From assembly GCF_011683915.1 (NCBI RefSeq), contig NZ_JAAQPH010000025.1:1-64000 (forward strand): a DNA stretch of 64,000 nucleotides, in the 5' to 3' direction. Source of the DNA: Pelagibius litoralis (GTDB taxonomy: Bacteria; Pseudomonadota; Alphaproteobacteria; Kiloniellales; Kiloniellaceae). Every line of letters begins with the position of its first letter. Position 1 is the first letter of the stretch. Positions 1,224 through 21,540 of this stretch are shown piece after piece. The notes under the pieces are model-generated. The model was not told where the DNA came from, did not search any database, and saw only the letters and a list, made by a program, of their open reading frames with translations. The translations under genes and the position numbers were made by a program.

Positions 1224-1712
1224 TCAGGCCTTGCGGTAGAGGTAGTAGCGGCCCGCCCGGACCCCCGGCGGCAAAGCCAGGGGCTCGGCCCCGGACCAGC
1301 CGACATCCTGATCGGAGACCACGACGCCGCCGCTGGTAAGCAGCAAAGGCAGGCGCGCCGCCACAAATGCCGAGACCGCCGCATCGCAGTCGGCCCGCCC
1401 GCTGCCGAGATCCGCGTGGATCAAGGCGACCCGACCGCCAAAGCGCCCGGCCGCGGCCTCCAGGGTCTCTTCGATGCAGCCCTCGAACAAATGTTCCACA
1501 TCCGGAACGCAATCCGGATGGGCGGCGACCTTGCGCTCAAAGACGAAAATCTCGCGCCCGGGGCAGGCCTCGCGCAGATGGTCGTAGGTGCGGCCATTGC
1601 CGAGGCCGAGTTCGAACACCGCCCCCGGCAGATCGCCCACCAGATCGACGGCGGCATCAAGGCAGGCGCGCTGCGCCTGAAGGCGGCGGATAAAGCTGTC
1701 GAGACGGCTCAT
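1224..1712 (-). CDS. Class I SAM-dependent methyltransferase
   Basis: This 162-residue protein carries the SAM-binding glycine motif FELGLGNG (about residues 33-40) and a later VALIHADLGSG strand, fitting a compact Rossmann-fold methyltransferase of the Methyltransf_17 type (my family assignment from memory). The substrate is unknown. It is the last gene of a minus-strand run that starts with an ABC-transporter-like gene and a cyclic-nucleotide-binding gene, with a gap of 70 bases to the latter, so the three are probably one transcript. A role in modifying a glycan or lipid made by the divergent glycosyltransferase operon is possible but only inferred. Confidence 0.7.
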   Translation of the reverse strand: MSRLDSFIRRLQAQRACLDAAVDLVGDLPGAVFELGLGNGRTYDHLREACPGREIFVFERKVAAHPDCVPDVEHLFEGCIEETLEAAAGRFGGRVALIHADLGSGRADCDAAVSAFVAARLPLLLTSGGVVVSDQDVGWSGAEPLALPPGVRAGRYYLYRKA

Positions 1713-1782
1713 AGTACCTGTGTTCTTGGGCTGTGGGGTACGGGCCCCTTTGCCGAGGGTCGGCAGGTCAGTCGATCAGGGA

Positions 1783-2232
1783 TCAGCCCGCCGCCCGCGC
1801 CTCGCGCAGTTGATTGGTGGTCTGCTCCAGGCGATGGGCCAGCACGCGCATGACCTCGACCCCCATCTCGGGGAAATCCATGATCATCCGGAAAAACAGA
1901 TCCTTGGTGATCTTCAATGTGGTGAGTTCGGTCGCCGCCTGCACCGTGGCGGTGCGCGGAATATCGCAGAGGATGGCGATCTCGCCGATAATCTCGTTAT
2001 CCGAAAGCTGGGCGACCCGCATGGGGCCGTCAGCCGCGTTCACCAGGATGTCCGCCGTTCCCTCCAGCACGATGTAGGCGGCATCGCCCATCTCGCCCTG
2101 AGCGAAGAGCGTCTGGCCCGACTTATAGGTCAGCCGCTCGCTGGCAAAGGCCATCAGCTTCAGCTTGGCCGGTTCGATCTGCGAAAAGATCGGAATGCGC
2201 CGCAGGATCTCCACTTCTTGATCGATGCTCAT
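1783..2232 (-). CDS. Cyclic-nucleotide-binding domain protein
   Basis: This 149-residue stand-alone cNMP-binding domain contains the hallmark phosphate-binding cassette GEIAILCDIPRTATV (about residues 83-97), with the conserved glutamate and the arginine that contacts the cyclic phosphate, so it should bind cAMP or cGMP. There is no DNA-binding domain after it, unlike CRP. The start at MSIDQEVE is chosen because AGGAAG lies about 6 bases upstream; an in-frame start 14 codons earlier has no good site. It lies 63 bases after the ABC-like gene and may control it by protein contact. A class III cyclase is encoded at 16508-17839. Confidence 0.85.
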   Translation of the reverse strand: MSIDQEVEILRRIPIFSQIEPAKLKLMAFASERLTYKSGQTLFAQGEMGDAAYIVLEGTADILVNAADGPMRVAQLSDNEIIGEIAILCDIPRTATVQAATELTTLKITKDLFFRMIMDFPEMGVEVMRVLAHRLEQTTNQLREARAAG

Positions 2233-2295
2233 GCCCCGCTTCCTCGCTCCTCTGCTGTCAGGCGCCCACTCCATGCGGGCGCCGATTATTGGCCG

Positions 2296-5004
2296 CTATT
2301 CCGCGGCAACCAGGTTCTTGAAGGTAGTGCCGCTCTGCGTCAGGTCCTGATAGCTGCCCTGTTCGACCAGCCGGCCATCGCCCATCACCAGGATGGTTTC
2401 AAAACGACTGGCCAGATCCGGCCGCTGCAGGGTCCAGACCACACCCCGGCCGCGGCGCATCTCCAGAATGTTGTCGATAAGACGTATCTGGCTCGCCCGG
2501 TCGAGAACCGAGGCCGCTTCGTTGACGATCAGAATATCCGGCTGCTTCAGCAAGGCCCGCCCGATCGCCAGCTTTTGCCGCTGTGCGGCCGAAAGCCGGC
2601 CGCCGCCGATCCCCACGTTGTAATCCAGGCCGACCTCGATGACGGTCTGATGCAGGCCGAGATCGTTCAGCACCTCCGACAGGGCTTCGCCGATCGTCTC
2701 CTCCGCCTTGGCCTGGCCATAGGCCAGACGCCCGAAGAGGATGTTGTCCTGCAGGGAGGCCGCGGCATTGTAGGCTTCGGCCCCGTAGAACTCCACGGCG
2801 CCCGGGCAGTCCCGCTCCAGTCGCTCCGCCAGGCGGCGGCGCGCATCCACCAGCCGCACCGCCATGGCGTCGTCGACCAGGCCGAGGCGATGGCGCGCCT
2901 CGACGTACTTGAAGGGCAGGCCCAGCAGAAGCTGGCGGGCCGCTTCGTCCAGCGCTTCCACGCCGGAATTGTCGACCCGGGTGACGATGGTGCGGAACTC
3001 CGGCAGGTCGTCGTCACTGATAAAGCTGAACTGCTCGAAGAAGGGATGGCCGGGCGGCAGGTCGGCAAAGATTTCGACCATGGTCTTGGCGATGGTCGAA
3101 CCCATCGAGACGAAAGCTTCGGTCAGCCCGGCCTCGCGCAGAACCAGGTCGACCGTCGCGTTGGTGGCCAGCGCTTCGGATTCAAAATCGGCACGGCGCG
3201 GCGTGCCGAACAAAAGGTTCTCCGCCACACTGGCGTTGAGGTTGTAGTTGTCGGCTTCGAAGCGCACGACAAGATCTTCGTTCCCGCTGCTGGTCAGGCG
3301 TTCGACAATGGCGGCGCGGGCTTTCAGGATGCCGGCGGCGATTTCCGGTTTGCCGAGCGGATCGATGGTCCCGGTCAGACCGAAACGATAGGCATCGCTC
3401 TCAAGATCGACCGCCGCCAGAACCTCCATCAGACGCTCGGTCATTTCCTTTTCGTCGCCGGCGCCGGCAGCCTGATAGTCGATCCAGTCGGCCTGGATAT
3501 CGAGCACCGGATTGCCCGCGCGCCGGCTCTCGGCAAGATCGGCGGCGGAGGTCGCGTGATCGGGATCGGCCTTGATCACCGGCTTGTGCTTCAGGCCATA
3601 AAGCAGGTTGCTGCGCAGCGATCCGGTGAAGTGATAGGCGTTCTGGCCGACATAGGAGAGGCGCCGCCCGGTCACCGAAGACGGCAGCTCGTCAATGTCC
3701 TTGCCGGCAATCCACAAATGGCCGGAAGAAGGCTCGATCAGGCCGGCCAGCAACAGGCTCAGCTGCTCCATGCCGCTGCCGCTCTGGCCGACGATGGCGA
3801 TATGCTGGGTCGTCTCCGCGGTGAAGGACACGGAGCGCAGCAGCGGGATGTCGTTTTCGTCGAGCAGGGTCAGCGACGAGGCCGCGATCTGTCCGGTCAG
3901 CGGCGGACCTGGATCGTTGTCGGGCAACTGCTGCGCCGGGTCGATGAGGCTTGGCGGCTGGAACTGGTCGATCACCTGCTCGTATTTGATCTGCACGTCC
4001 AGGCGCTGCTGGTCCCAGTCGATCAGCTCTTTGATCGGCGAGGGCAGGTCCTTGTAGGCGGCGATCACCGCGACCAGCGCACCGATGTCCAGGTGGCCGT
4101 AAATCGCCAGCAGGCCGCCCCCGAGATAGAAGACAAAGGGGGTGAACTGGGCCAGCAGGTTGTTGAGGAATTTGACGAAGAACTTTCGCTGATAGATCTC
4201 GTAGCGGATCTTGAAGATGCGCCCGAGGCGTGAAGAGAGATCGGCGCGTTCGTAGTTCGACGTATCGTTGGCATGCACCTCGACGCCACCGTCGATAAGT
4301 TCGCCGATCCGCCCGGCCAGCATGCGCGCCGTCAATTGACGTTCGCGGCCCAGAACCAGAATGCGCTTGCGCAGCTTGGGGATCAGGAAAGCCTGGAACA
4401 GAACAATCGCGGCCGCCACAAGGCCCAGCCAGATCGACTGCACCAGGATGAACGTCAGGGCGGTCAGGGCCTGGCCGCCGAGAAACAGCGGGGTGGCGAA
4501 GGCGTCGCCGATGAAGCCGCCGAGCGGCTCCACCTCGTCCTTCACCATGGTCGCCATCTCGGAGGGCTTCACACGGCGCAGGTGGGGCAGCGGAAAGCGC
4601 AGTATGCGGTCACTCAGCTCGTAACGCAGCCGCCGCAGCAGGCGCTCGCCCATGCGGCCCTTGCGGGTGTTGATGACGAACTTGAACAGCCCGTTGACGA
4701 GGACCAGGCTGAGGAAGGAGAGGCTGAGGGCCAGGAGCATATTAGCCTGATCGAGCGACAGGCCCTCGAACAGCTGTATCGGCCGGCCAAACAGACTCTC
4801 GGCGAAAGGCAGGTCCAGACTGAAAAACCTCTGGGTCGCGCCCGGCCCGTCGAAGCCCTGCCCCTGGATCCCCTCATTGACGATCTGTTTAGGCAGGTTC
4901 AGCGAAAGGTAATAAAACGGCAGTGACAGGAGAACCAGGACCAGGATTACCAGTTGTTCCGCCCGGCTGTGATGCCACACATATCTGAAGATGTTTGGTT
5001 CCAT
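2296..5004 (-). CDS. ABC-transporter-like membrane protein with degenerate ATPase
   Basis: The protein is about 902 residues, far longer than a usual half-transporter (about 600). Residues 20-330 form an ABC exporter-type membrane domain with several hydrophobic helices. The ATPase part starts near residue 400, but its Walker A reads GQSGSGME (about 406-413) with no lysine, the Walker B-like strand is DILIVNEA (Asp to Asn), and the H-loop region reads WTLQRPDL with no histidine. The signature LSAAQ is kept. Between Q-loop and signature lies an insertion of roughly 280 residues with two further Q-loop-like stretches (near 585 and 745). It is therefore likely ATPase-dead. The start MEPNIF is preferred over one three codons upstream. 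The gene is divergent from the glycan operon. Confidence 0.85.
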   Translation of the reverse strand: MEPNIFRYVWHHSRAEQLVILVLVLLSLPFYYLSLNLPKQIVNEGIQGQGFDGPGATQRFFSLDLPFAESLFGRPIQLFEGLSLDQANMLLALSLSFLSLVLVNGLFKFVINTRKGRMGERLLRRLRYELSDRILRFPLPHLRRVKPSEMATMVKDEVEPLGGFIGDAFATPLFLGGQALTALTFILVQSIWLGLVAAAIVLFQAFLIPKLRKRILVLGRERQLTARMLAGRIGELIDGGVEVHANDTSNYERADLSSRLGRIFKIRYEIYQRKFFVKFLNNLLAQFTPFVFYLGGGLLAIYGHLDIGALVAVIAAYKDLPSPIKELIDWDQQRLDVQIKYEQVIDQFQPPSLIDPAQQLPDNDPGPPLTGQIAASSLTLLDENDIPLLRSVSFTAETTQHIAIVGQSGSGMEQLSLLLAGLIEPSSGHLWIAGKDIDELPSSVTGRRLSYVGQNAYHFTGSLRSNLLYGLKHKPVIKADPDHATSAADLAESRRAGNPVLDIQADWIDYQAAGAGDEKEMTERLMEVLAAVDLESDAYRFGLTGTIDPLGKPEIAAGILKARAAIVERLTSSGNEDLVVRFEADNYNLNASVAENLLFGTPRRADFESEALATNATVDLVLREAGLTEAFVSMGSTIAKTMVEIFADLPPGHPFFEQFSFISDDDLPEFRTIVTRVDNSGVEALDEAARQLLLGLPFKYVEARHRLGLVDDAMAVRLVDARRRLAERLERDCPGAVEFYGAEAYNAAASLQDNILFGRLAYGQAKAEETIGEALSEVLNDLGLHQTVIEVGLDYNVGIGGGRLSAAQRQKLAIGRALLKQPDILIVNEAASVLDRASQIRLIDNILEMRRGRGVVWTLQRPDLASRFETILVMGDGRLVEQGSYQDLTQSGTTFKNLVAAE

Positions 5005-5245
5005 ACCCCTCACCGACCCGAACTAACCACTTGATCCAGCGGCCAGCTTTGGCGCTTCTCCTGGCGCAACTTAGCCCATGGCCCGCAGCGGGTAAACGCC
5101 CGCCCAAGGGCGCGCCGGCCCGCCACGATCACGCTTTCGTTGGCGTAACGACGATTTTCAGCGGGCTTCCTGCCGGGCCGGCGCTGTGTCATAGTCCGGC
5201 CCGCCAGATTGCACCAAGCCAGATTGCAACGAGGGAGAATGCGGC

Positions 5246-6475
5246 GTGCAGGAAAGCCGCAGGGGCAAGCGGGTCCTCATATACAGTCACGACAGTTTCG
5301 GCCTGGGCCATCTGCGCCGCTGCCGGGAAATCGCGCATACCCTGGCGGAGGCGCACAAGGCCCTGTCGGTGCTGATTCTTTCCGGCTCACCCATCATCGG
5401 TTCCTTCGATTTCCGCGCCCGCGTCGACTTCGTTCGGGTGCCGGGAGTGATCAAGCTGCGCAACGGCGACTACACCTCTCTGGCGCTGCATATCGATGTC
5501 GATCAGACCATGGCCATGCGCGAATCGATCATCGAACATACCGCCAAGGCCTTCGACCCGGACCTTTTCATCGTCGACAAGGAGCCGCTCGGCCTGCGCG
5601 GCGAGGTGGAGGGGACGCTCGCCATGCTGAAGGAACGCGGGACGCCCTGCGTGCTGGGCCTGCGCGACGTTATGGACGAGCCCGGCCTGCTGGCCCCGGA
5701 GTGGGAGCGCAAACAGGTGGTTCCGGCCCTGGCGCGCTACTACGACGACATCTGGGTCTACGGCCTGCCGCAGATCTGCGATCCGCTTGAGGGCATCGAC
5801 CTGCCGGATTCAGTGCGCAAGAAGATGACCTACACCGGCTATCTGCGCCGCACCCTGCCGGAGGCCGCCGCGCAGCTGACCCTGGAGAAGATCCAGGACC
5901 CCTTCATCCTGGTCACCGTCGGCGGCGGCGGCGACGGCGAAGCGATCGTCGATTGGGTGCTGCGCGCCTACGAAAGCGACCCCGATCTGCCCAATCCCGC
6001 GCTGTTGATCCTGGGGCCTTTCATGAACAGCGAAGTACAGGCCGACCTGCAGGCCAGGGTGGCCAAACTGGACAAGGTGGAAGCCATCACCTTCGAGGCC
6101 CGCATCGAAAGCCTGGTGGATCAGGCTGCCGGGCTGGTCTGCATGGGCGGCTACAACACCTTCTGCGAGGTCCTGTCCTTCGACAAGCGCGCCCTGGTGG
6201 TCCCGCGCACCGAACCCCGGATGGAGCAGTACATCCGCGCCTCCCGCGCGCAGGACCTGGGACTGGTGCGCATGCTGCGCGACGACGGCACCCGCGATGC
6301 CCGCCTGATGGCAACGGCCCTGCGCAACCTGCCGCAGCAGCGCCGCCCCTCTGAGGTCGTGGTTCCCGGTCTGCTGGACGGGCCGCAAAACGTCGTGCGC
6401 CTGGCGGACCATTGGCTCGAACAGGGCGGCAAAGGCCTCAGCCTGGCCGACAGTGCCAAACAAGGGCAGGCGTGA
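5246..6475 (+). CDS. GT-B glycosyltransferase (family 28-like, COG4671 type)
   Basis: This 409-residue protein has an N-terminal YSHDSFGLGHLRRC motif (residues 13-26), the glycine-rich loop of MurG/GT28-type enzymes. A TVGGGGDGE loop near residue 228 and MGGYNTFCEVL near 302 match the C-terminal nucleotide-sugar-binding half. It should transfer a sugar from an activated donor; the acceptor is unknown. A GTG start is chosen because GAGGGAG lies 8 bases upstream (5231-5237). It is the first gene of a tightly packed operon running to 12166. A paralogue with the same two motifs lies at 9550-10845. Confidence 0.85.
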   Translation: MQESRRGKRVLIYSHDSFGLGHLRRCREIAHTLAEAHKALSVLILSGSPIIGSFDFRARVDFVRVPGVIKLRNGDYTSLALHIDVDQTMAMRESIIEHTAKAFDPDLFIVDKEPLGLRGEVEGTLAMLKERGTPCVLGLRDVMDEPGLLAPEWERKQVVPALARYYDDIWVYGLPQICDPLEGIDLPDSVRKKMTYTGYLRRTLPEAAAQLTLEKIQDPFILVTVGGGGDGEAIVDWVLRAYESDPDLPNPALLILGPFMNSEVQADLQARVAKLDKVEAITFEARIESLVDQAAGLVCMGGYNTFCEVLSFDKRALVVPRTEPRMEQYIRASRAQDLGLVRMLRDDGTRDARLMATALRNLPQQRRPSEVVVPGLLDGPQNVVRLADHWLEQGGKGLSLADSAKQGQA

Positions 6476-7800
6476 CACCGGCCGCCATGCAGGCTGTCCC
6501 GCACACCAGCACCCAGGCAAGTGTCGACAGCGCGGCACCGGGCCCCTCGCTCGCCGTGGTCCTGAAGGGCTACCCCCGCCTGTCGGAAACCTTTATCGCC
6601 CAGGAGCTTCTGGCCCTGCAGCGCCGTGGCTTTCGTCTGCGGCTGATATCGCTGCGCCATCCCACCGACGCGAAGCGCCACCCGGTGCACGACGAAATCA
6701 CCGCGCCGGTGACCTACCTGCCGGAATATCTCTATCAGGAACCGTGGCGCGTGCTGCGCGCCTGGCGGCGGGCCCGCCATCTGCCCGGCTATCGCCGGGC
6801 CCGGCAGGTTTTCCTGAAAGACCTGTGGCGTGACCGCACGCCGAACCGTATCAGGCGCTTCGGCCAAGCCTGTGCGCTGGCAGCCGAGCTGCCCGACGAC
6901 GTGGAGCGCCTCTACGCCCACTTTCTGCATACCCCTGCCTCGGTTGCCCGCTATGCGGCGGTAATGCGGGGACTGCCGTGGTGCGGTTCGGCCCATGCAA
7001 AGGACATCTGGACCCTGCCGGACTGGGAGAAGCGCGAAAAACTGGCGGAGGCCGACTGGCTGGTGACCTGCACCGCCTATGGGGCCGAGCACCTGCGCGC
7101 CCTGGCACCGGAGCCGCAGCGTGTCGGACTGGTCTATCACGGGTTGGACCTGTCGCGCTTTGCCGCCGCATCAGATTCAGGCGAGACCCCGGAGAACCGG
7201 GACGGCAGCGCGGAAACGGCACCGGTGCGCCTGCTCTCCGTCGGCCGGCTGGTCGAGAAAAAGGGTTACGACGACCTGCTGGCGGCGCTCGCGGCCCTGC
7301 CGGCCGGGCGGCATTGGCACCTGACCCACATCGGCGGCGGGCCGCTGGCCCAGCCGCTTCGCCAGCAGGCCGAGAAACTGGGCCTTGCCGGGCGAATCTC
7401 ATGGCTCGGCCCCCAGGCCCAGCGCGAGATTCTGGCGCACTACCGCAAAGCCGACATCTTCGTCCTGGCCAGCCGGATCGCCAGAACCGGCGACCGGGAC
7501 GGCCTGCCGAACGTCCTGATGGAGGCCCAAAGCCAGGGCCTGACCTGCCTGGCCACCGCCGCCGCCGCGATTCCGGAACTGATCGAAGATGGTATAACCG
7601 GCTGCCTGGTACCGCCCGGCGATCCGGAGACCCTGGCCCGGGCGCTGTCACTGTTGATGGCGTCACCGGACCTCAGGGCGCAGCTTGGCAGGGCCGGCGA
7701 GGTGCGCGTTCGAAGGGATTTTGATATGAACCGGGGGATTGATGCTTTAGACCGGTTGCTGAGATCGGGCCAAGCAAGCAAACTTGCCGAATTGTTGTAG
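6472..7800 (+). CDS. Glycosyltransferase family 4-like
   Basis: About 442 residues with a GT-B fold. The C-terminal half has LLSVGRLVEKKGYDDLL followed by DGLPNVLMEAQSQGL, the family 4 EX7E region with the first acidic residue as Asp, and IPELIEDGITG. The N-terminal half opens with VVLKGYPRLSETFIAQE, typical of surface-polysaccharide transferases. The start is taken as the GTG at 6472 because it overlaps the previous TGA in GTGA, suggesting translational coupling; an ATG five codons later is the alternative. It probably extends an exported glycan or glycolipid; the sugar is not predictable. Confidence 0.85.
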   Translation: MTPAAMQAVPHTSTQASVDSAAPGPSLAVVLKGYPRLSETFIAQELLALQRRGFRLRLISLRHPTDAKRHPVHDEITAPVTYLPEYLYQEPWRVLRAWRRARHLPGYRRARQVFLKDLWRDRTPNRIRRFGQACALAAELPDDVERLYAHFLHTPASVARYAAVMRGLPWCGSAHAKDIWTLPDWEKREKLAEADWLVTCTAYGAEHLRALAPEPQRVGLVYHGLDLSRFAAASDSGETPENRDGSAETAPVRLLSVGRLVEKKGYDDLLAALAALPAGRHWHLTHIGGGPLAQPLRQQAEKLGLAGRISWLGPQAQREILAHYRKADIFVLASRIARTGDRDGLPNVLMEAQSQGLTCLATAAAAIPELIEDGITGCLVPPGDPETLARALSLLMASPDLRAQLGRAGEVRVRRDFDMNRGIDALDRLLRSGQASKLAELL

Positions 7801-7819
7801 GGTATTCTTGTTCTAGACT

Positions 7820-8950
7820 ATGCGTATCGCCTTTTATGCTCCGCTAAAACCGCCGACCCATGCGACCCCTTCCGGGGACCGCCTGATGGCGCAGTTGCTG
7901 ATGCAGGCCCTTGAGCAGGCGGGCCACGAAGTCACCCTGGCAAGCCGCTACCGCAGCCGCGAAGCGGTCGGCAAGGCGGATCGTCAGGCCCGTCTGCAGA
8001 AAGTCGGCCAACAGCTGGCGCAGCGCCTGATCCGGCACTATCAGGCGCTGCCTGCACGCCAGCGCCCCCAGCTCTGGTTCACCTATCATCTGTATTATAA
8101 GGCCCCGGACTGGATCGGCCCGGCCGTCGCCAAGGCCCTGAAGATCCCCTATGTCGTGGCCGAAGCCTCGGTCGCCCATAAACGCGCCAACGGTCCCTGG
8201 TCGGCCAGCCACCGCGCGGTCTTGCAGGCCCTGGACCAGGCCGCCGCGGTTATCGCCTTGAACCCGCTGGATGCCAAGCTGATCCCGGACCAGAACAAGG
8301 TCCGGTCACTGAAGCCGTTCCTGGATACCGCGCCCTACCAAGCCGTGCTGGCGCTGCGCGGCGACTACCGCAACGCCCTGGCGGCCGAGCAGCACCTGGA
8401 TCCGGAAATGCCCTGGCTGTTGGCCGCCGCGATGACCAGACGGGGCGACAAGCTGGCGTCCTACCAGATCCTGGCGCAGGCGCTGCGGGCCATTCCCGAT
8501 ATGCCCTGGCAGCTGATTGTCGCCGGCGAGGGGGATGCCTACGAAGACGTGCGCCAGGCCTTTGCCTGGGCAATGCCGGAGCGGGTGCGGTTCCTGGGGC
8601 TGGTGCAGCCCGCAGTCATGCCTGCCCTCTATGCAGCCTGCGATCTGATGGTCTGGCCGGCGGTGAACGAAGCTTACGGGATGGCCTTGCTGGAGGCCCA
8701 GGCGGCCGGTCTTCCAGTGGTGGCCGGCCGCAATCCGGGCGTGGAAACCGTGGTTGCCGAGGGCGTTACCGGGTATCTCTGCGACCCCGGCCTCGCAACC
8801 TTTGCCGCCAGCGTGCGCGAGATCCTGACCCAGACCGCCAGCCGCAGCGCCATGGGTGAAGCGGCCCCCCGCATGGTAGCCGAGAATCACAGCCTGTTGG
8901 CCGCGGCGCGGCGCCTGAACAGCATCCTGGAAGAAGCGAGCCGCCGGTGA
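7820..8950 (+). CDS. Glycosyltransferase family 4-like
   Basis: This 376-residue GT-B glycosyltransferase has an N-terminal FYAPLKPPTHATPSGDRL segment like that of family 4 enzymes that form a donor/acceptor cleft. The C-terminal part has VAGEGDAYEDVRQ and the full EX7E motif in NEAYGMALLEAQAAGLPVV. The acceptor is unknown. It begins 20 bases after the previous gene and its TGA overlaps the GTG of the next gene (GTGA), so it belongs to the same coupled operon. No membrane segment is evident, so it should act at the cytoplasmic face. Confidence 0.85.
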   Translation: MRIAFYAPLKPPTHATPSGDRLMAQLLMQALEQAGHEVTLASRYRSREAVGKADRQARLQKVGQQLAQRLIRHYQALPARQRPQLWFTYHLYYKAPDWIGPAVAKALKIPYVVAEASVAHKRANGPWSASHRAVLQALDQAAAVIALNPLDAKLIPDQNKVRSLKPFLDTAPYQAVLALRGDYRNALAAEQHLDPEMPWLLAAAMTRRGDKLASYQILAQALRAIPDMPWQLIVAGEGDAYEDVRQAFAWAMPERVRFLGLVQPAVMPALYAACDLMVWPAVNEAYGMALLEAQAAGLPVVAGRNPGVETVVAEGVTGYLCDPGLATFAASVREILTQTASRSAMGEAAPRMVAENHSLLAAARRLNSILEEASRR

Positions 8951-9537
8951 CGGCGTTGCTGCTGATCCGGCACGGCCCGACAGCCTGGAACGAGGAGGGG
9001 CGCCTTCAGGGACGCAGCGACCAGCCGCTTTCGGCGCAGGGGCGCCGGGAGGTTCAGGGCTGGCGGGTTCCCGAAGCGGACAGCCGTGCCGCCTGGATCA
9101 CCAGCCCCCTGATGCGGGCGCGCCAGACGGCGGAAATCCTGCACGGCACGGCGGTGGAGAGCGAAGACCGCCTCATAGAAACCGACTGGGGCGACTGGGA
9201 AGGCTGCAGGCTGGCCGAACTGCGCGCCACCCAGGGCGTCGCCATGGCCGAGAACGAGGCCCGCGGTCTGGACTTCCAACCGCCGGGCGGCGAAAGCCCG
9301 CGCGCGGTCCAGGCGCGGGTAAAACCGTTGCTGTCCGCACTCGCCCGCGATCGACAGGACACGGTGGCGGTGGCGCACAAGGGCGTGATCCGGGCCGTCT
9401 ATGCCCTTGCCAGCCGCTGGGACATGCGCGAAAAGCCGCCTGTGAGGCTGGAACGGGCCTGCGCCCATCGCTTCGACCTGGCGCCTGACGGCGCGCCGCA
9501 GGTTGCTATGCTGAACATCCCGCTCAGCCCGGTATAG
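8947..9537 (+). CDS. Histidine phosphatase family protein (phosphoglycerate-mutase-like)
   Basis: This 196-residue protein begins LLLIRHGPTAWNEEGR, the RHG catalytic motif, and has a matching VAVAHKGVIRAV with the second catalytic histidine, so it is a probable phosphatase of the histidine phosphatase superfamily. It starts at a GTG overlapping the stop of the preceding glycosyltransferase. Lying between glycosyltransferase genes, it most plausibly dephosphorylates a phosphorylated sugar or lipid-linked intermediate rather than acting in glycolysis. That role is inferred from position only. Confidence 0.85.
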   Translation: MTALLLIRHGPTAWNEEGRLQGRSDQPLSAQGRREVQGWRVPEADSRAAWITSPLMRARQTAEILHGTAVESEDRLIETDWGDWEGCRLAELRATQGVAMAENEARGLDFQPPGGESPRAVQARVKPLLSALARDRQDTVAVAHKGVIRAVYALASRWDMREKPPVRLERACAHRFDLAPDGAPQVAMLNIPLSPV

Positions 9538-9549
9538 TGGCCGGGAATA

Positions 9550-10845
9550 GTGGCGGGGGATAACGGAAACAGGTCTTTGGCGGAACAGGTGACGACGGAT
9601 CGCGGAAGCAAAGGGGCCCCGGGCAATTACGGTTGCGACGTGCTGTTCTACGTTCAGCACCTGCTGGGGATCGGTCATATCCGCCGCGCCGCGGTGCTGG
9701 CCCGCGCCTTTCAAAAGGCCGGACTGAAGGTCGTCTTCGTAACCGGCGGGCTGCCCATCGGCGATCTTGGCTTCGAGGAGGTCCAGGGCCTCGCGCCGAT
9801 AGAGGTGGTCCAGTTGCCGCCCGCCCGCGCCCAGGACGAGACTTTCGCCGTGCTGGTCGACGAGAACGACCGGCCGGTCGACGACGCCTGGATGGCGAAC
9901 CGCCGCGAGACGCTGCTGGCGGTCCATGAACGCTGCCGCCCAAGGGTGGTGATGATCGAACTCTACCCCTTTGGCCGCCGCAAGATGCGCTTCGAGTTGG
10001 AACCCCTGATTGCTGCGGCCCGGGAATCCGGGGCGCTGATCGCCTGTTCCCTGCGCGATATCGTCAACCGGCCGGAGAAGGCCGACAAGGCAGCCTGGAT
10101 GCTGGAGACTTTCCGCCGCGGTTTCGATCTGCTTTACGTCCACGGCGATCCGGCCTTTTTCCAACTCGAAACCAGCTTTCCCGAAGCCGCCGCACTGTCC
10201 GAACGCCTGTACTACACCGGCTATGTCACCGAAGCGGGCCAGCGCCTGCCGCCGCCCCAGCCGGACGACACCGGCGCCGAAGACTTGAAGGCCGGCAAAG
10301 GCGAGGCCATCGTTTCCGTCGGCGGTGGCGCGGTCGGGCGTCATCTGGTCGAAGCGGCCCTGGCCGCCAGGGCCCTGTCGCCCCTCGCCGAGATCCCCTG
10401 GCGGGTGCTGATCGGCCCCAATATGCCCGAGGTGGATTTCCAGAAGATCGTCGCCGCAGCGCCGGCGGGCATCGCGGTGGAACGCGCACGCAGCGACTTC
10501 GCCTTGTTGCTGACCCGCGCCAGGCTTTCCATCAGCCAGGGCGGCTACAACACCCTTATGGAGGTTCTCGCCGCCGGGCTGCCCGGCGTGGTGGTGCCCT
10601 TCGCCGGCGGCACCGAGACCGAGCAGACCCTGCGTGCCGGCCGCCTGGCGGACCAGGGCTACCTGACCGTCGTCGACGAAGCAAACCTGAGCGGCGCCAG
10701 CCTGGCCGCGGGGATCGCCCGGGCGCTGGAGACCCGGCCGTTGGCGACAGCAAAGCCCTTTCGAATGGACGGGGCTGACGAAACCGCGCGCCATCTGATC
10801 GCACAACTGGCCGCACGGGACCAACCCCAGGAACTGGACGCATGA
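9550..10845 (+). CDS. GT-B glycosyltransferase (family 28-like), paralogue of the operon's first gene
   Basis: This 431-residue protein has YVQHLLGIGHIRRA near the N-terminus, which mirrors the FGLGHLRRC loop of the protein at 5246-6475. Further on it has IVSVGGGAVGRHLVEA, and SQGGYNTLMEVLAAGLPGVV replaces MGGYNTFCEVL. It is therefore a second MurG-like transferase in the same operon, probably acting on a related acceptor. The start is a GTG 12 bases after the previous stop; later in-frame starts are possible because the first 27 residues look unstructured. Its TGA overlaps the ATG of the next gene. Confidence 0.83.
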   Translation: MAGDNGNRSLAEQVTTDRGSKGAPGNYGCDVLFYVQHLLGIGHIRRAAVLARAFQKAGLKVVFVTGGLPIGDLGFEEVQGLAPIEVVQLPPARAQDETFAVLVDENDRPVDDAWMANRRETLLAVHERCRPRVVMIELYPFGRRKMRFELEPLIAAARESGALIACSLRDIVNRPEKADKAAWMLETFRRGFDLLYVHGDPAFFQLETSFPEAAALSERLYYTGYVTEAGQRLPPPQPDDTGAEDLKAGKGEAIVSVGGGAVGRHLVEAALAARALSPLAEIPWRVLIGPNMPEVDFQKIVAAAPAGIAVERARSDFALLLTRARLSISQGGYNTLMEVLAAGLPGVVVPFAGGTETEQTLRAGRLADQGYLTVVDEANLSGASLAAGIARALETRPLATAKPFRMDGADETARHLIAQLAARDQPQELDA

Positions 10846-11639
10846 GCGACTGGCAAGCCCTGGAGCGCGAGTTGGACCGTTGGGACGCGGCAGGCCGCAG
10901 CGCCACCCTATGGTGGCGCGACGACGATGCCGGCGCGCGCTCCCCCGCCCTGGACCGCCTGCTTGGCCTGGCGGCCCGCCACGGCCAGCCGCTGGCGCTG
11001 GCGGTCATCCCCAACGAAGCGCAAGCCGGGCTTGAGACAGACCTCGCCAGGCCCGACAGTCCGGTGAGCGTGCTGCAGCACGGCTTCGCCCATCGCAACC
11101 ACGCACCCGCCGGTGCCAAGAAGTGCGAGCTGATCGACCCGCAGACGCGCCCGGAGATCCTCGCTGAACTGCGCCAGGGCGGTGCCCGGCTGCAGGATTG
11201 CTTCGGCGCGCGGGCGCTGAGCGTTCTGGTGCCGCCGTGGAACCGTATCGACCCGGCCCTCTGCGCGCAGCTGCCGGGCCTCGGCATCACCGGCCTGTCC
11301 ACCTACAAGGCACGGGACAGGGCCGTGCCCCTGCCGGGCCTGCAGCAGGTGAACTGCCACCTGGATATCATGCAATGGCGCCCCGAACGCCGCTTTCTCG
11401 GCGAAGCGGCGGCGCTCGATCTGCTGGCCGGCCATCTGAAGGCGCGGCGCGAAGGTACCGCCGACCCGGCGGAGCCCAGCGGCATCCTGTCCCACCACGC
11501 CGCCCATGACGACGACGCCTGGGATTTCCTCGACCGGCTGCTCGATTGCCTGGGCCGCCACCGGGCGGCGCGCCTGCTGTCCGCCGCCGAAACTTTCGCG
11601 CCGGCCAAGCTTGGAACCACGGCAGGAAAGGTCGCATGA
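10842..11639 (+). CDS. Polysaccharide deacetylase-like protein
   Basis: This 265-residue protein has the NodB-homology pattern: TLWWRDDDAG near residue 23 (metal/base Asp), LQHGFAHRNH near 79 (metal-binding His pair), VPPWNRID near 128 and LSHHAAHDDDAW near 221. It probably removes an acetyl (or similar acyl) group from a sugar. No signal peptide is visible, so it should act in the cytoplasm on a precursor. It is joined to both neighbours by ATGA overlaps and so belongs to the glycan operon. The family also acts on other N-acyl substrates, so the exact reaction is open. Confidence 0.75.
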   Translation: MSDWQALERELDRWDAAGRSATLWWRDDDAGARSPALDRLLGLAARHGQPLALAVIPNEAQAGLETDLARPDSPVSVLQHGFAHRNHAPAGAKKCELIDPQTRPEILAELRQGGARLQDCFGARALSVLVPPWNRIDPALCAQLPGLGITGLSTYKARDRAVPLPGLQQVNCHLDIMQWRPERRFLGEAAALDLLAGHLKARREGTADPAEPSGILSHHAAHDDDAWDFLDRLLDCLGRHRAARLLSAAETFAPAKLGTTAGKVA

Positions 11640-12166
11640 TCGTCCTGCGCTACCCGCCACGCGCCCTGATGGGGGACTACCTGCGCTCCGGCGCCGGGCT
11701 GCTGGTCGGTTTCGGGGTGCTCGCCGCGGTCCCGCCAAACCTGCCGGTGCTGGTCATCTTCGGCGGCATTGCCTTGCTGTTCAGCATCTTCGGCATCCGG
11801 ACCCTGCGCCGCCACAAGCTGGAGGTCGCCTTGACCGACAACGAGATCGCCTGCCGCGGCTTTGGCACCAAGGTATTGCCCTGGGCGGAACTGGAAGTCA
11901 TGAAGCTGCGCTATTTCGGCGCCCGCAAGGGAAAACGCGGCATCTTCGGCAGCGGATTCATGGAACTGACGCTGAAAGGCGCCGGCACGGCCGTTACTTT
12001 CGAATCGAGCCTGGACGGCTTTGAAAAGCTCGCCGCGGCAGCGCTGCGTTCATACAAGGAGAGAGGCCTGGAGATCGATCCGGCAACGGCCAGTAATCTG
12101 ATCGAACTGGGCATCGACAGCGGGACAACGGAGCCGGGGTGTGATTCCCCGCCAAACATCCTATAA
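11636..12166 (+). CDS. Small membrane protein with PH-like cytoplasmic domain
   Basis: This 176-residue protein has two adjacent hydrophobic segments (about residues 18-36 and 40-56), followed by a soluble part with LEVALTDNEIACRG and LPWAELEVMKLRYFG, a pattern seen in bacterial PH-like membrane proteins. The ATG overlaps the preceding TGA (ATGA) and marks the last gene of the glycan operon. The function is not known; it may anchor or scaffold the pathway at the inner membrane. The family assignment is from pattern memory and is uncertain. Confidence 0.6.
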   Translation: MIVLRYPPRALMGDYLRSGAGLLVGFGVLAAVPPNLPVLVIFGGIALLFSIFGIRTLRRHKLEVALTDNEIACRGFGTKVLPWAELEVMKLRYFGARKGKRGIFGSGFMELTLKGAGTAVTFESSLDGFEKLAAAALRSYKERGLEIDPATASNLIELGIDSGTTEPGCDSPPNIL

Positions 12167-12241: not shown

Positions 12242-14173
12242 GTGCGGAACCTACTGCACATAAGGGATCTGCGGATCAGCTTCAATCTGCCGGAGGGGCG
12301 CCTGGAGGCGGTCCGCGGCGTCAGCTTCCGCGTGCCGGCCGGCCGGACCGTCGCCCTGGTCGGCGAGTCCGGCTCCGGCAAGTCCGTCGTCAGCCAGGCG
12401 ATCATGGGCATCCTGCCGCGCAGTGCGTCGATCGACAGCGGCCGTATCCTGCTGAACGATCCGGCGACATCCAGCCAGGTCATCGATATTGCCAGTCTGC
12501 ACCCCGACAGCCAGGCGATGCGCGACATCAGAGGCAGCCGTATCTCGATCATTTTCCAGGAGCCGATGACCTCTCTGTCGCCGGTCCACTCGGTGGGCAA
12601 CCAGATCTGCGAGGCCCTGCATCTGCACCGCAAGGTCAGCACCGCGGAAGGCCTGTCCCTGGCGACCGAGATGCTGCGCCTGGTCGGTTTCCCCGACCCG
12701 GCCAAGGCGATCAACACCTATCCCTTTGAGCTTTCCGGCGGGCTGCGCCAGCGCGCCATGATCGCCATGGCCCTGGTCTGCCGCCCGGCGCTGCTGATCG
12801 CCGACGAGCCGACAACCGCACTGGACGTGACCATCCAGGCGCAGATCCTGAAGCTGATCAAGGACCTGCAGTCCGAGCTCGGCATGGCGGTGCTGATGAT
12901 CACCCATGACCTGGGGGTGGTGGCCAACGTGGCCGACGAGGTGGTGGTCATGTACCACGGCGAGATCATGGAAAGCGGCACCCTGGACGATATCTTCAAA
13001 GCCCCCGCCCATCCCTATCTTTCTGCCCTTCTGCGCGCGGTGCCGCGCTTTCATATGAAGCCCGGCGAGCGGCTGGTGCCGATCCGCGAGATCAAGAAGC
13101 GGGCCGACGGCGCCTTCCTGGCCCAGAAAGCCGAACAGGCGGTAAGCGCCGATCCCACGATCCTTAAGGTCGAGGGTGTCACCAAGAAGTTCACGATCCG
13201 CAAGTCCGGTCTTTTCGGCGGCGGCAAGGAGAGCGCGGTCCTGGCGGTCGACGATGTCAACCTGACGGTCGAGCGCGGCGAATGCCTGGGCCTGGTGGGG
13301 GAGAGCGGCTGCGGCAAGACCACCCTGTCGAAGATGATCATGCGGGCGCTCACCCCGGACAGCGGCAGCATCACCTTTACCGGCGGGCGCCCCGGCGACA
13401 GCGAGACCGACGTGCTGGCGCTGCATGACAAGGCGCTGATGAACTTTCGCACACAGATCCAGTTTGTTTTCCAGGACCCCTTCTCCTCTCTCAACCCGCG
13501 CATGACCGTCGGCGAGATCATCGCCGAACCGCTGGTCATTCACGGCATCGGCGACGCCGCCGACCGGCGCAAGGTGGTCGAGGAACTGATGGGCGTGGTC
13601 GGCCTCAACCGGCAGCATATCCGCCGCTATCCCCACAGCTTCTCAGGCGGTCAGCGCCAGCGCATCGGTATCGCCCGCGCCCTGGCGCTGCGGCCCCAGC
13701 TGCTGATCTGCGACGAACCGGTCTCGGCCCTGGACGTCTCGATCCAGGCGCAGGTCCTGAACCTGCTGAAAGACCTTAAGAAAGACCTCGGCCTCACCTA
13801 TATCTTTATCAGTCATAACCTGGCGGTGGTCGACTACATCGCCGACCGCATCGCGGTGATGTGCCAGGGGCGGCTGGTCGAACTGGCACCGCGCGAGAGC
13901 CTGTTCCGCGCACCGGCGCATCCCTATACCAAGGCCCTGCTCTCCGCAGTGCCCGAACCCAATCCCAACCAGCGCCTCGACCTGACGGCGCTGATGCAGG
14001 GCCGCGCCTCCGACCCCACGGCCTGGCCGGCGCCTTTTGGCATCGACGGCGAGCATGCCATGACGATGGTCGATCTGGGCGGCGGTCACCAGGTGCGCGC
14101 CCGCGCCGACGCAGCGCCGGAGCTGCTGCTCTGCCGCCCGCAGCCGGTTCTGCAGACAAGCACGAAGGTCTAG
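12242..14173 (+). CDS. Fused double ATPase of an oligopeptide-type ABC transporter
   Basis: The protein is about 643 residues with two complete ABC ATPase domains. The first has GESGSGKS, the signature LSGGLRQR and Walker B LLIADEP. The second has [16 protein letters not shown] and LLICDEP. Each is followed by the AHPY element typical of DppD/DppF-type ATPases. Both sites look active, unlike the ABC-like protein at 2296-5004. It would drive uptake of a peptide, opine or similar solute through the two permeases encoded directly downstream. The GTG start gives RNLLHIRDL. No substrate-binding protein gene is adjacent. Confidence 0.9.
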
Positions 14174-14178
14174 GTCGG

Positions 14179-15177
14179 ATGCTCAGCTACTTCGTCCGCC
14201 GCCTGCTGGTGATGATCCCGACCTTGCTGGTGATCAGCCTGGTGGTCTTCTTCATCATCCAGCTGCCGCCCGGCGACTTCCTGGAAACCCACATCGCCGA
14301 GTTGATCGCCCAGGGCGAGACCGTCGATTCCGCCCGCATCGCATTCCTGCGTGAGCAATACGGCCTCGACAAGCCGATGATCGAACAGTACTGGGTCTGG
14401 CTGTTCGGCCTGCTGCAGGGCGACCTCGGCTACTCCTTCGAGTTCGAGCTGCCGGTGGGGGAAGTCATCGGCAACCGCTTCTGGTTCACCGTTCTGCTGG
14501 CCGTCGCCACGACGATCTTTACCTATATCATCTCCTTTCCCATCGGCATCTACTCGGCCGTCAAGCAGTACTCCATGAGCGATTATACGGTGACCTTGAT
14601 CGGCTACTTCGGTCTCGCCATGCCGAACTTTCTCTTCGCCCTGGTGCTGCTCCACTACGCCAATATCTGGTTCGGCCTTTCCATCGGCGGCCTGATGGAC
14701 CCGCGCTACATCGACGCGCCCTGGACCCTGGACAAGGTGATCTCGGTCATCAACCATCTGTGGATTCCGATGCTCGTCATCGGCACCTCGGGCACCGCCG
14801 CGATGATCCGCCGCCTGCGCGCCAACATGCTGGACGAACTGCAGAGGCAGTACGTGGTGACGGCCAGGGCCAAGGGGCTGTCGTCAACGAAGATCATTCT
14901 GAAGTACCCGCTGCGCATGGCCCTCAACCCCTTCATTGCCGATATCGGCATGCTGCTGCCGCAGATCGTCTCCGGCGCCGCGCTGGTTTCCGTCGTCATG
15001 GACCTGCCGACCAACGGGCCGCTGCTGCTGCGCGCGCTGCAAAGCCAGGACATGTTCCTGGCCGGCGCCTTTTTGATGTTCGAGGCGACCCTTGTGGTGA
15101 TCGGCGTCTTCCTCTCCGATGTGCTGCTGGCCATGCTCGACCCACGCATCCGCCTGGGGGGGGCTTCGTCCAAATGA
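14179..15177 (+). CDS. ABC transporter permease (OppB/DppB type)
   Basis: About 332 residues starting MLSYFVRRLLVMIPT, the typical first helix of DppB-like permeases, followed by a periplasmic loop, five further helices and the EAA-type loop (RRLRANMLDELQRQYV...ARAKGL) that contacts the ATPase. The ATG at 14179 comes 5 bases after the ATPase stop. Its TGA overlaps the ATG of the second permease. The protein is an inner-membrane channel subunit. Confidence 0.92.
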   Translation: MLSYFVRRLLVMIPTLLVISLVVFFIIQLPPGDFLETHIAELIAQGETVDSARIAFLREQYGLDKPMIEQYWVWLFGLLQGDLGYSFEFELPVGEVIGNRFWFTVLLAVATTIFTYIISFPIGIYSAVKQYSMSDYTVTLIGYFGLAMPNFLFALVLLHYANIWFGLSIGGLMDPRYIDAPWTLDKVISVINHLWIPMLVIGTSGTAAMIRRLRANMLDELQRQYVVTARAKGLSSTKIILKYPLRMALNPFIADIGMLLPQIVSGAALVSVVMDLPTNGPLLLRALQSQDMFLAGAFLMFEATLVVIGVFLSDVLLAMLDPRIRLGGASSK

Positions 15178-16349
15178 GCGACCACAATCCGCGCCCCGGC
15201 GACCCGCTGCAGCACTACGTCAACAAGGCGCCCTTCGACCCCTATCGCGCCGATACCCTGACGCCGGAGCAGGAACGCTACTACCAGGCATCCGAATGGA
15301 AGATCATGTGGTGGAAGTTCCGCCGCCATAAGCTTGCCGTCTGGTCCGGTGCCTTCCTGCTGATGATGTACTTCGCAATTGCGATCTGCGAATTCCTGAC
15401 GCCCTACAACCTGCACAGCCGCGACACCACCCACATCTACGCACCGCCCCAGGGCCTGCACCTGTTCCACGAGGGCACCTTCGTCGGGCCTTTCGTCTAC
15501 GGTTACGATTTCAGACTGAACATGGAAACCCTGGCGCGCGAGTACGTGCCCAATCCCGACAAGATACAGAAGGTCCGTTTCTTCTGTTCCGGCGACCCCT
15601 ACGAGTTCTGGGGCGCAATCCCCGGCGACGTCCATCTTTTCTGTGCGGCCGAAGGCGGCACCCTTTATCTATTCGGCACCGACCGGCTGGGCCGCGACAT
15701 GTTCAGCCGCATTATTTACGGCGCGCGGATTTCGCTGACCCTGGCCTTCATCGCCGTCGCCATTTCCTTCGTGCTGGGCGTCATCATCGGCGGCGCCGCC
15801 GGCTACTACGGCGGCATGGTCGACGCCGTCGTGCTGCGGATCATCGAGCTGATCCGGTCCTTCCCGGAACTGCCGCTGTTCATGACGCTCTCGGCACTGC
15901 TGCCGGTAACCTGGAGCCCGATCGGAGTCTTCGTCGGTATCTCGGTGATCATCGGGTTTCTCGACTGGCCCGGCCTGGCGCGTGCCGTCAGGGCCAAGAT
16001 CCTCTCCCTGCGCGAGGAGGATTTCACCACCGCGGCGCAGCTCATGGGGGCCTCGCCAAGCCGCATCATCGGCCGTCACCTGCTGCCCAGTTTCACCAGC
16101 CACCTGATCGCCTCTCTCTCGCTGTCGGTGCCGACCGCGATCCTGGGTGAAACGGCACTGTCGTTCCTGGGGATCGGCCTGCGGCCGCCGGTGACCTCCT
16201 GGGGCGTTCTGCTCAACGAAGCGCAGAACCTCAATGCGGTCGAACTCTATCCCTGGCTGCTGTTGCCGGTGGTGCCGCTGTTCCTGGTGGTGCTGGCTTT
16301 CAACTTCCTGGGCGACGGCCTGCGCGACGCGGCGGACCCTTACAGATAA
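15174..16349 (+). CDS. ABC transporter permease (OppC/DppC type) with enlarged periplasmic loop
   Basis: About 391 residues. After a first helix (LAVWSGAFLLMMYFAIAIC) there is an unusually long extracytoplasmic stretch of about 100 residues with two cysteines (FFCSGDPYEFWG ... HLFCAAEGG), before the conserved FGTDRLGRDMFSRI and the remaining five helices. A similar insertion is known in a subgroup of oligopeptide/opine-type permeases. The EAA loop RAVRAKILSLREEDF is intact. The ATG overlaps the upstream TGA. The gene closes the transporter operon and is followed by a hairpin repeat. Confidence 0.92.
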   Translation: MSDHNPRPGDPLQHYVNKAPFDPYRADTLTPEQERYYQASEWKIMWWKFRRHKLAVWSGAFLLMMYFAIAICEFLTPYNLHSRDTTHIYAPPQGLHLFHEGTFVGPFVYGYDFRLNMETLAREYVPNPDKIQKVRFFCSGDPYEFWGAIPGDVHLFCAAEGGTLYLFGTDRLGRDMFSRIIYGARISLTLAFIAVAISFVLGVIIGGAAGYYGGMVDAVVLRIIELIRSFPELPLFMTLSALLPVTWSPIGVFVGISVIIGFLDWPGLARAVRAKILSLREEDFTTAAQLMGASPSRIIGRHLLPSFTSHLIASLSLSVPTAILGETALSFLGIGLRPPVTSWGVLLNEAQNLNAVELYPWLLLPVVPLFLVVLAFNFLGDGLRDAADPYR

Positions 16350-16372: not shown

Positions 16373-16510
16373 GGAGCAGATCCCGGCCGGATGGAATCGC
16401 CGGAGGCGATCCATCGACCGGGTGAATCTGCTCTAACTGTTCGATGGCGATCGGATTCACATGTTTTGGCGCAACCACGAAGTGGTTCCGTCAAAACATG
16501 ATCCGATCTA
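16373..16510. repeat. Dispersed hairpin repeat, copy 1 (two stem-loops)
   Basis: The right-hand hairpin (16449-16508) has the arm GATCGGATTCACATGTTTTG continuing to GCGCAACCAC, a GAA loop and the complementary arm GTGGTTCCGTCAAAACATG continuing to ATCCGATC. A left-hand hairpin pairs AGCAGAT..CCCGG with CCGGG..ATCTGCT, with an inner stem ATGGAATCGCC/GGCGATCCAT. The right part recurs almost unchanged at 37447-37538. In both copies the terminal CTA is the stop codon, read on the minus strand, of the neighbouring gene. It lies between two convergent genes and could terminate both. Confidence 0.75.
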
Positions 16511-21495: not shown

Positions 21496-21540
21496 ATGAA
21501 AATCACCCCAGGAATCGCACGACAAGACGGCAAGGCTTGA
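21496..21540 (+). other. Candidate 14-codon leader frame before MFS copy 2
   Basis: The ATG at 21496 opens MKITPGIARQDGKA, 14 codons, whose TGA overlaps the TTG start of the second transporter (TTGA). Length, MKI start and overlap match the leader frame before copy 1, while the rest of the peptide has diverged. This suggests that position and overlap, rather than peptide sequence, may matter. Confidence 0.3.

Follow-up and report, generated by a model that had tools for sequence, protein, structure and literature searches.

The stretch of DNA analysed here, hereafter the window, comprises 64,000 nucleotides of Pelagibius litoralis (contig NZ_JAAQPH010000025.1, positions 1 to 64,000), and carries between positions 1224 and 19692 a gene cluster that, as judged from its sequence, probably serves to make a protective surface sugar. 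We consider, with a probability of about 55%, that this locus is the Pelagibius/Kiloniellaceae copy of a surface-glycan locus of the type known in Sinorhizobium meliloti as PPP (phazolicin-protecting polysaccharide), and that a cyclic-nucleotide-binding (CNB) protein directly controls a catalytically dead unit of the ATP-binding cassette (ABC) exporter type that would be needed for glycan output. The glycan locus itself is of a known kind; the new part is the dead ABC exporter paired or fused with a CNB domain. No report of this pairing or fusion was found in the open-licence PMC literature, where absence is weak evidence.

The ABC-exporter-like protein and its cyclic-nucleotide-binding partner

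The first base of the window is also the first base of the contig, so that the upstream flank is out of view, and the following features lie in the first 5 kb of the window:

1224..1712, minus strand: S-adenosylmethionine (SAM) methyltransferase, Methyltransf_17 (Pfam E 3.4e-53)
1783..2232, minus strand: stand-alone CNB protein (Pfam cNMP_binding)
2296..5013, minus strand: ABC-exporter-like membrane protein, catalytically dead, 902-905 amino acids (start ATG at 5004 suggested by homologues)
2518..2535, minus strand: degenerate Walker B of the ABC protein (ILIVNE, Asp to Asn; motif comparison)
2581..2595, minus strand: degenerate ABC signature of the ABC protein (LSAAQ; motif comparison)
2797..3579, minus strand: insert of about 260 amino acids within the nucleotide-binding domain (NBD) of the ABC protein (internal repeat comparison)
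3766..3789, minus strand: degenerate Walker A of the ABC protein (GQSGSGME; Lys to Met, Ser/Thr to Glu)

The 905-residue ABC protein keeps the full fold of a type IV ABC exporter, with a transmembrane domain (TMD) and an NBD, and its list of structural matches includes SUR2B. Among five catalytic elements (Walker A, Walker B, signature, Q-loop and H-loop), it retains one, the Gln of the Q-loop, and every one of 110 orthologues keeps at most two. The Walker A Lys and Ser/Thr are found together in a single orthologue, as are the Walker B Asp and Glu, and the signature is found in two. An acidic residue occupies the Walker A Ser/Thr position in 95 of the 110 proteins, the Walker B Asp is gone in 96, and the signature and the H-loop are gone in most; individual residues survive more often, namely the Walker A Lys (59/110) and the Walker B Glu (49/110). 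As a control, Walker A and LSGGQ/E are found at 7/7 ABC loci of the same genome, which represent six distinct proteins (L004 and L007 are the same gene), only frames with LSGGQ/E having been listed, one per locus; the Walker B pattern is missed at one of these loci and the H-loop pattern at another.

The Q-loop/helical segment occurs three times in the ABC protein, two of the copies being inside or at the edge of the NBD insert, with internal repeat scores of 146 and 73 against a shuffle mean of 29 and a weak third pairing (41). The TMD is the best conserved part of the protein (0.797, against 0.675 for the NBD; 21 sequences), whereas in an ordinary exporter family the two values are 0.823 and 0.813 (30 sequences), both sets being drawn from the same 41 relatives and not matched genome for genome. 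The ABC protein of a Pelagibius metagenome-assembled genome is 86% identical to that of the window. A divergent ABC-CNB fusion of 1133 amino acids (locus L250 in genome G304, 2351-5749) keeps the Walker A Lys-Ser and the Walker B Asp-Glu, and is perhaps close to an ancestral, active form.

In 143/143 neighbourhoods, the ABC match is followed on its own strand by a CNB match that starts no more than 600 nt further on; these loci were picked by their ABC match, with bit-score thresholds of our own, their named and unnamed sets partly overlap, and one of them (L118) is actually a fusion. The phosphate-binding cassette is well kept, with its Gly in 144/144 proteins, its Arg in 144/144 and its Glu in 137/144, that of the window included. 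The CNB protein of the window is 149-163 amino acids long depending on its start, for a homologue median of 151. Pfam gives cNMP_binding alone, and no helix-turn-helix (HTH) or other DNA-binding domain was found in it; the name Crp/Fnr regulator, borne by one record, is thus rejected for lack of an HTH domain. A palindrome pattern that we take to be Crp-type has no match in the divergent region (5014-5245), where the promoter scan was uninformative, and its sole match in the window, at 32295, compares with 0.35 expected by chance.

ABC and CNB are found in one frame, the ABC part always first, at 11 of 20 divergent loci (8 genomes), a proportion that is not a frequency, the loci having been selected for long frames or low identity; eight of the others have a separate adjoining CNB gene. 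The Pfam domains ABC_membrane and cNMP_binding are confirmed in 4/4 of the fusions scanned. That two proteins encoded side by side elsewhere are fused at some loci is strong evidence that the CNB domain would act directly on the dead ABC unit.

Several known systems resemble one side or another of this pair. Compared with the type IV exporters MsbA and TM287-288, the window protein has lost the catalytic motifs, has its helical segment triplicated and carries the insert of about 260 amino acids, in addition to its CNB partner. SUR and CFTR are ABC proteins that work as regulators or channels and still bind ATP; they share with the window protein an exporter fold put to a use beyond that of a simple pump, whereas the latter is devoid of the ATP motifs and is joined to a cyclic-nucleotide domain. 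The cyclic-nucleotide-gated channel SthK, which the CNB sequence matches (E 5.5e-14), is likewise a membrane protein with its CNB domain at the C-terminus, but the membrane part of the window system is of the ABC exporter type and not a channel. In the NHLM systems, which have active ATPases and a bacteriocin context, transport-associated CNB proteins (TIGR03896) stand beside ABC export; the match to them is weak (43.7 bits, under the cut-off of 161). Finally, SbmA/BacA (SLiPT), with an ABC-type TMD driven by the proton gradient, provides a precedent for ATP-independent operation of a membrane part of the ABC exporter type, but SLiPTs have no NBD, whereas the NBD fold is present, if dead, in the window protein.

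The conserved gene set

The sequence-only reading of the window had grouped ten genes, the minus-strand trio listed above and a divergent plus-strand run of seven, into one functional unit. All ten are intact frames between 1224 and 12166, and their grouping is real. The gene set is a conserved unit, and a larger one than first noted: the plus-strand run extends past 12166 into three genes of the Opp type, one for a dual ATPase and two for permeases (12242-16349); beyond these the minus strand encodes, up to 19692, a class III cyclase, another methyltransferase and an MBL-fold hydrolase. The features that complete the cluster are the following:

5246..6475, plus strand: GT28-like glycosyltransferase GT28a (Pfam Glyco_tran_28_C; orthologue of S. 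meliloti smb21265 by gene counting)
6487..7800, plus strand: GT4 glycosyltransferase GT4a (Pfam Glycos_transf_1, E 4.9e-32)
7820..8950, plus strand: GT4 glycosyltransferase GT4b (Pfam Glycos_transf_1, E 3.5e-24)
8947..9537, plus strand: histidine phosphatase branch 1 (Pfam His_Phos_1, E 1.5e-41)
9550..10845, plus strand: GT28-like glycosyltransferase GT28b, start maybe at 9640 (Pfam Glyco_tran_28_C, E 9.8e-14)
10842..11639, plus strand: putative divergent NodB/CE4-like polysaccharide deacetylase (invariant motif columns)
11636..12166, plus strand: protein with two transmembrane segments and, tentatively, a PH-like domain
12242..14173, plus strand: Opp-type dual ATPase OppDF
14179..15177, plus strand: Opp-type permease B (OppB)
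15174..16349, plus strand: Opp-type permease C (OppC)
16508..17839, minus strand: membrane class III nucleotidyl cyclase (Pfam Guanylate_cyc, E 2.2e-8)
18092..19015, minus strand: Methyltransf_24 methyltransferase, cluster-linked in some relatives
19012..19692, minus strand: MBL-fold hydrolase, weakly RNase Z-like, under the cut-off of that family

The co-occurrence of these genes was assessed in one draw of 289 alphaproteobacterial genomes, with statistics that ignore relatedness and with cut-offs of E<=1e-80 for the ABC protein, E<=1e-40 for GT28a and E<=1e-130 for OppC. The ABC protein is present in 97 genomes (72 of 224 when counted by genus), GT28a in 93 and OppC in 91. ABC and GT28a are found together in 91 genomes, the former alone in six and the latter alone in two; 88 of the 91 genomes with OppC also have the ABC protein. 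All three are found in 87 genomes (89 with OppC at E<=1e-90) and at least one of them in 101, at either OppC cut-off. As to their distance, ABC and GT28a are less than 10 kb apart in 65 of the 91 genomes, farther apart on one contig in seven and on different contigs in 19, the latter being draft assemblies in which the true distance is undefined (of the two ABC hits in G081, we took that located on the contig of GT28a). Separation of the two runs in most relatives, which would have spoken against the sequence-only reading, is thus not observed. Co-occurrence extends to the remaining 26 genomes, and the two genes therefore tend to travel together even when they are not adjacent.

Gene order is conserved as well. 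The arrangement methyltransferase-CNB-ABC, followed by GT28a-GT4a-GT4b-histidine phosphatase-GT28b-deacetylase-PH-like protein-OppDF, holds, apart from minor differences, in 45 of the 60 neighbourhoods, each of 20 kb, that were hand-picked from ABC matches on the longer contigs of other genomes; it is partial, rearranged or missing in the other 15, in some since the stretch ends. Among 55 loci whose ABC gene is flanked by 8 kb or more on either side, GT28a is present in 47, GT4a in 49, the histidine phosphatase in 46, GT28b in 45, OppDF in 39 and Methyltransf_17 in 35, and 53 named loci with 8 kb flanks give similar counts for GT28a (46) and GT4a (45), with any Opp gene in 44. In Rhizobium lentis and R. 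etli, the Opp genes, three glycosyltransferase genes, ABC and CNB form a single co-directional run, and on a Mesorhizobium plasmid the Opp genes are on the far side of the cluster. This conserved order, together with the co-occurrence of ABC, GT28a and OppC, supports the proposal that the set is one functional unit, the minus-strand trio included. The ABC protein is present in 36 of 41 near relatives, the window genome being counted. In a phylum-level draw, 23 of 349 genomes have a match, and all matches among those listed belong to the own genome, the same order or the same class; record titles of matches also name Betaproteobacteria, Burkholderiales and Plasticicumulans, presumably a gammaproteobacterium.

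The 16 genes between 1224 and 19692, to which the scan was confined without the rest of the genome, include no Wzx, Wzy, Wzz, Wzm/Wzt or other classic exporter of polysaccharides. This agrees with the initial statement that no classic exporter accompanies the cluster, which had nevertheless overlooked the Opp-type ABC transporter co-occurring with it. The latter has the composition of an Opp/Dpp-type importer, with a dual ATPase and two permeases, OppDF and OppB being 5 nt apart with no gene for a solute-binding protein between them. Elsewhere in the genome, two solute-binding proteins (L199 and L200, on contigs C22 and C64, distinct from that of the Opp genes) are 48-49% identical to the one of the Mesorhizobium cluster, with no other cluster gene matched in the surrounding 20 kb; they are possible partners of the window transporter. 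The same genome has a second GT28a-like gene (G000:C1:21590-22684), whose product is 33% identical to the GT28a of the cluster.

In the deacetylase, the columns W-RDDD, HG..H, PPWNR and HH..D are invariant in 25 proteins. The metal-binding Asp and His-x3-His motifs of NodB/CE4 enzymes, as we take these columns to mean, are conserved (RDDD, HGxxH), while the family profile is not matched and neither Pfam nor PDB sequence profiles give a credible match. The PH-like protein has no match in Pfam, no credible one among PDB sequence profiles and none at E<=0.001 for its model in Foldseek. In the cyclase, the presumed metal-binding Asp residues are kept and a Lys replaces what we assume to be the canonical transition-state Arg.

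Other parts of the window show features of their own. Two adjoining MFS transporter genes (20002-21267 and 21537-22781), whose products are 77% identical, indicate a tandem duplication; the MFS gene found next to the rhizobial cluster was considered as their orthologue and rejected, with no BLASTP match at E<=1e-3. Between about 37500 and 57300, parB, mnmG (gidA), mnmE (trmE), rho and the uroporphyrinogen decarboxylase gene hemE are grouped, with a low-GC stretch near 52-54 kb, in what we take to be an alphaproteobacterial chromosomal origin region, and an MTTB-family trimethylamine methyltransferase gene lies at 48856-50427. The window has no tRNA and no Rfam match.

The Sinorhizobium meliloti counterpart

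In S. meliloti 2011, a single run of 22 kb on pSymB holds direct matches to eight window proteins (GT28a, GT4a, GT28b, the dead ABC protein, CNB, OppDF, OppB and OppC) and matches to three others (GT4, deacetylase and MBL-fold hydrolase) through their Mesorhizobium counterparts. With the annotation taken from strain R28, its order is GT4, deacetylase, MBL, DUF3095, nucleotide sugar dehydrogenase, cyclase, OppDF, solute-binding protein, OppB, OppC, GT28a, GT4a, GT28b, methyltransferase, ABC and CNB. The ABC protein is here also dead by its motifs, with an intact CNB cassette. The S. meliloti cluster differs from that of the window by additional genes, for the solute-binding protein, nucleotide sugar dehydrogenase, DUF3095, a lyase and an FkbM methyltransferase, and by its layout: the stretch bounded by the cyclase and FkbM genes is co-directional but for a single methyltransferase gene on the opposite strand that interrupts the run, whereas the window has divergent runs. 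A DUF3095 gene recurs beside the cluster in several rhizobial loci (L010, 21028-22191, and relatives), and no mention of this family was found in the open-licence literature.

By gene counting, we infer that this set is the PPP cluster, smb21252-smb21271, with GT4 as smb21252, GT28a as smb21265, ABC as smb21269 and CNB as smb21270. The count is anchored on genes named in three reports: SMb21247-21249 (sugar deacetylase, aminotransferase and sulfotransferase; PMC5498481), SMb21257 (adenylate cyclase; PMC12542648) and SM_b21272 (LacI; PMC11387232). According to the original report, PPP, named in 2023, is a putative surface polysaccharide for which nine genes of the smb21252-smb21271 interval are needed. 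When smb21252 or smb21265 is mutated, the minimum inhibitory concentration (MIC) of phazolicin drops from 0.625 to 0.078 µM, a phenotype that the authors read as the loss of a barrier polysaccharide. The phazolicin screen also shows a depletion of insertions in cyaA (smc00339), an adenylate cyclase gene on the chromosome (PMC10128002). Seven of the nine PPP genes are up-regulated during Myxococcus predation, according to another report (PMC10315480).

These data bear on two claims of the sequence-only reading. The surface-glycan role that it proposed becomes probable, as the S. meliloti orthologues, by counting, of GT28a and of a linked GT4 are reportedly needed for phazolicin resistance (PMC10128002). 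The view that the system is wholly undescribed is rejected in the light of the PPP match: its counterpart had already been named (PMC10128002), and the product is therefore not wholly undescribed.

Proposed mechanism and alternatives

In the mechanism that we propose, four glycosyltransferases would build the glycan, with a membrane lipid as its probable carrier, and it would be modified by the deacetylase and the methyltransferases. A cyclase, which some genomes encode within the cluster or close to it, would raise the level of cyclic AMP (cAMP) or cyclic GMP (cGMP); the CNB domain would bind this nucleotide and thereby shift the conformation of the dead ABC unit. The latter could then permit or organise the translocation or assembly of the glycan, and the Opp-type transporter would serve the same pathway, perhaps by importing a fragment or a signal. 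The gene set and its co-occurrence, the lost motifs, the intact CNB cassette, the fusions and the orthology with the PPP region, by sequence as well as by position, are observed; we infer the direct cyclic-nucleotide gating, the nature of the glycan and the cargo and direction of each transporter.

Several observations weigh against this mechanism. Concerning the signal, the Lys found in place of Arg in the window cyclase is one of them, and a cyclase was detected near the cluster in just 3/55 and 12/53 loci with 8 kb on both sides, counts to be read with the fact that its position often falls outside 20-kb stretches; the rhizobial cluster cyclase is apparently of another type than that of the window. 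The CNB cassette deviates from consensus in those fusions that are the most divergent, one of the 20 divergent loci (L256) shows no CNB neighbour, and L250, with its Walker A and B retained, indicates that not all family members are dead. The pairs of ABC and GT28a genes on different contigs (19/91) count on the same side. In S. meliloti, the histidine phosphatase, the PH-like protein and Methyltransf_17 have no match within 47 kb, cyaA is outside the cluster and its mutant has an MIC just two-fold lower (0.3125), and the PPP mutants in the available part of the report are in glycosyltransferase genes, not in those of ABC or CNB (PMC10128002).

The main alternative, unlikely in our view, makes the dead ABC protein the actual flippase or exporter of a glycan or glycolipid, driven by something other than ATP, such as the proton gradient, with CNB as a mere modulator. 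The complete exporter fold, the TMD being its best conserved part, and the lack of a classic exporter among the 16 genes scanned are in its favour, but no ion-coupling site was identified and the NBD, needless for an NBD-free mechanism, is well conserved. It is quite improbable that the true transport step is carried out by Opp, the glycosyltransferases making a diffusible glycolipid or oligosaccharide signal and the pseudo-ABC/CNB pair being a receptor that feeds the pathway. OppC co-occurs with ABC about as tightly as GT28a does, cyclases and the MBL hydrolase are in the cluster of some genomes, and the single co-directional run of R. lentis and R. etli would fit such a scheme; Opp systems are, however, importers by family. 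The barrier polysaccharide favoured by the authors of the S. meliloti study also argues against a signal (PMC10128002).

An ordinary, divergent exporter that still uses ATP, via unusual residues or an active ABC-half partner, would account for the surviving Walker A Lys and Walker B Glu and for the Lys-Ser and Asp-Glu of L250, and heterodimeric exporters with one degenerate site are known. We nevertheless hold it to be distinctly improbable: the acidic residue after the Walker A Lys position, the loss of the Walker B Asp and that of most signatures and H-loops would impair both composite sites of a heterodimer, and none of the 16 genes encodes a second exporter half. That the genes are mere neighbours, co-regulated in separate pathways with CNB controlling something else, is very improbable indeed; 26 of 91 genomes have ABC and GT28a more than 10 kb apart on one contig or on different contigs, but co-occurrence persists in those 26, genomes with only one of the two are rare (six and two of 289) and the CNB-ABC fusions exist. 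With regard to the preferred reading, that of a PPP-type locus whose dead ABC unit is controlled by CNB, we add as a tentative and somewhat doubtful extension that these proteins may form a new class of cyclic-nucleotide-gated membrane proteins derived from ABC exporters, in which control by a C-terminal CNB domain or partner would have taken the place of the ATPase and through which a lipid-linked glycan would cross without ATP hydrolysis at their own NBDs.

Our results show that the PPP-type locus is widespread in alphaproteobacteria and add the Opp transporter to the system. In S. meliloti, the PPP genes confer protection against an antimicrobial peptide, and the majority are up-regulated under predation. 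The locus offers a testable link between cAMP and a surface glycan that would not involve a transcription factor, and suggests that cyclic nucleotides act directly on a dead ABC exporter. It also provides a natural experiment on the fate of an ABC exporter after the loss of its ATPase. As the ABC protein is present in 97 of the 289 alphaproteobacterial genomes, the gated ABC class, if true, would be a common device of their envelope.

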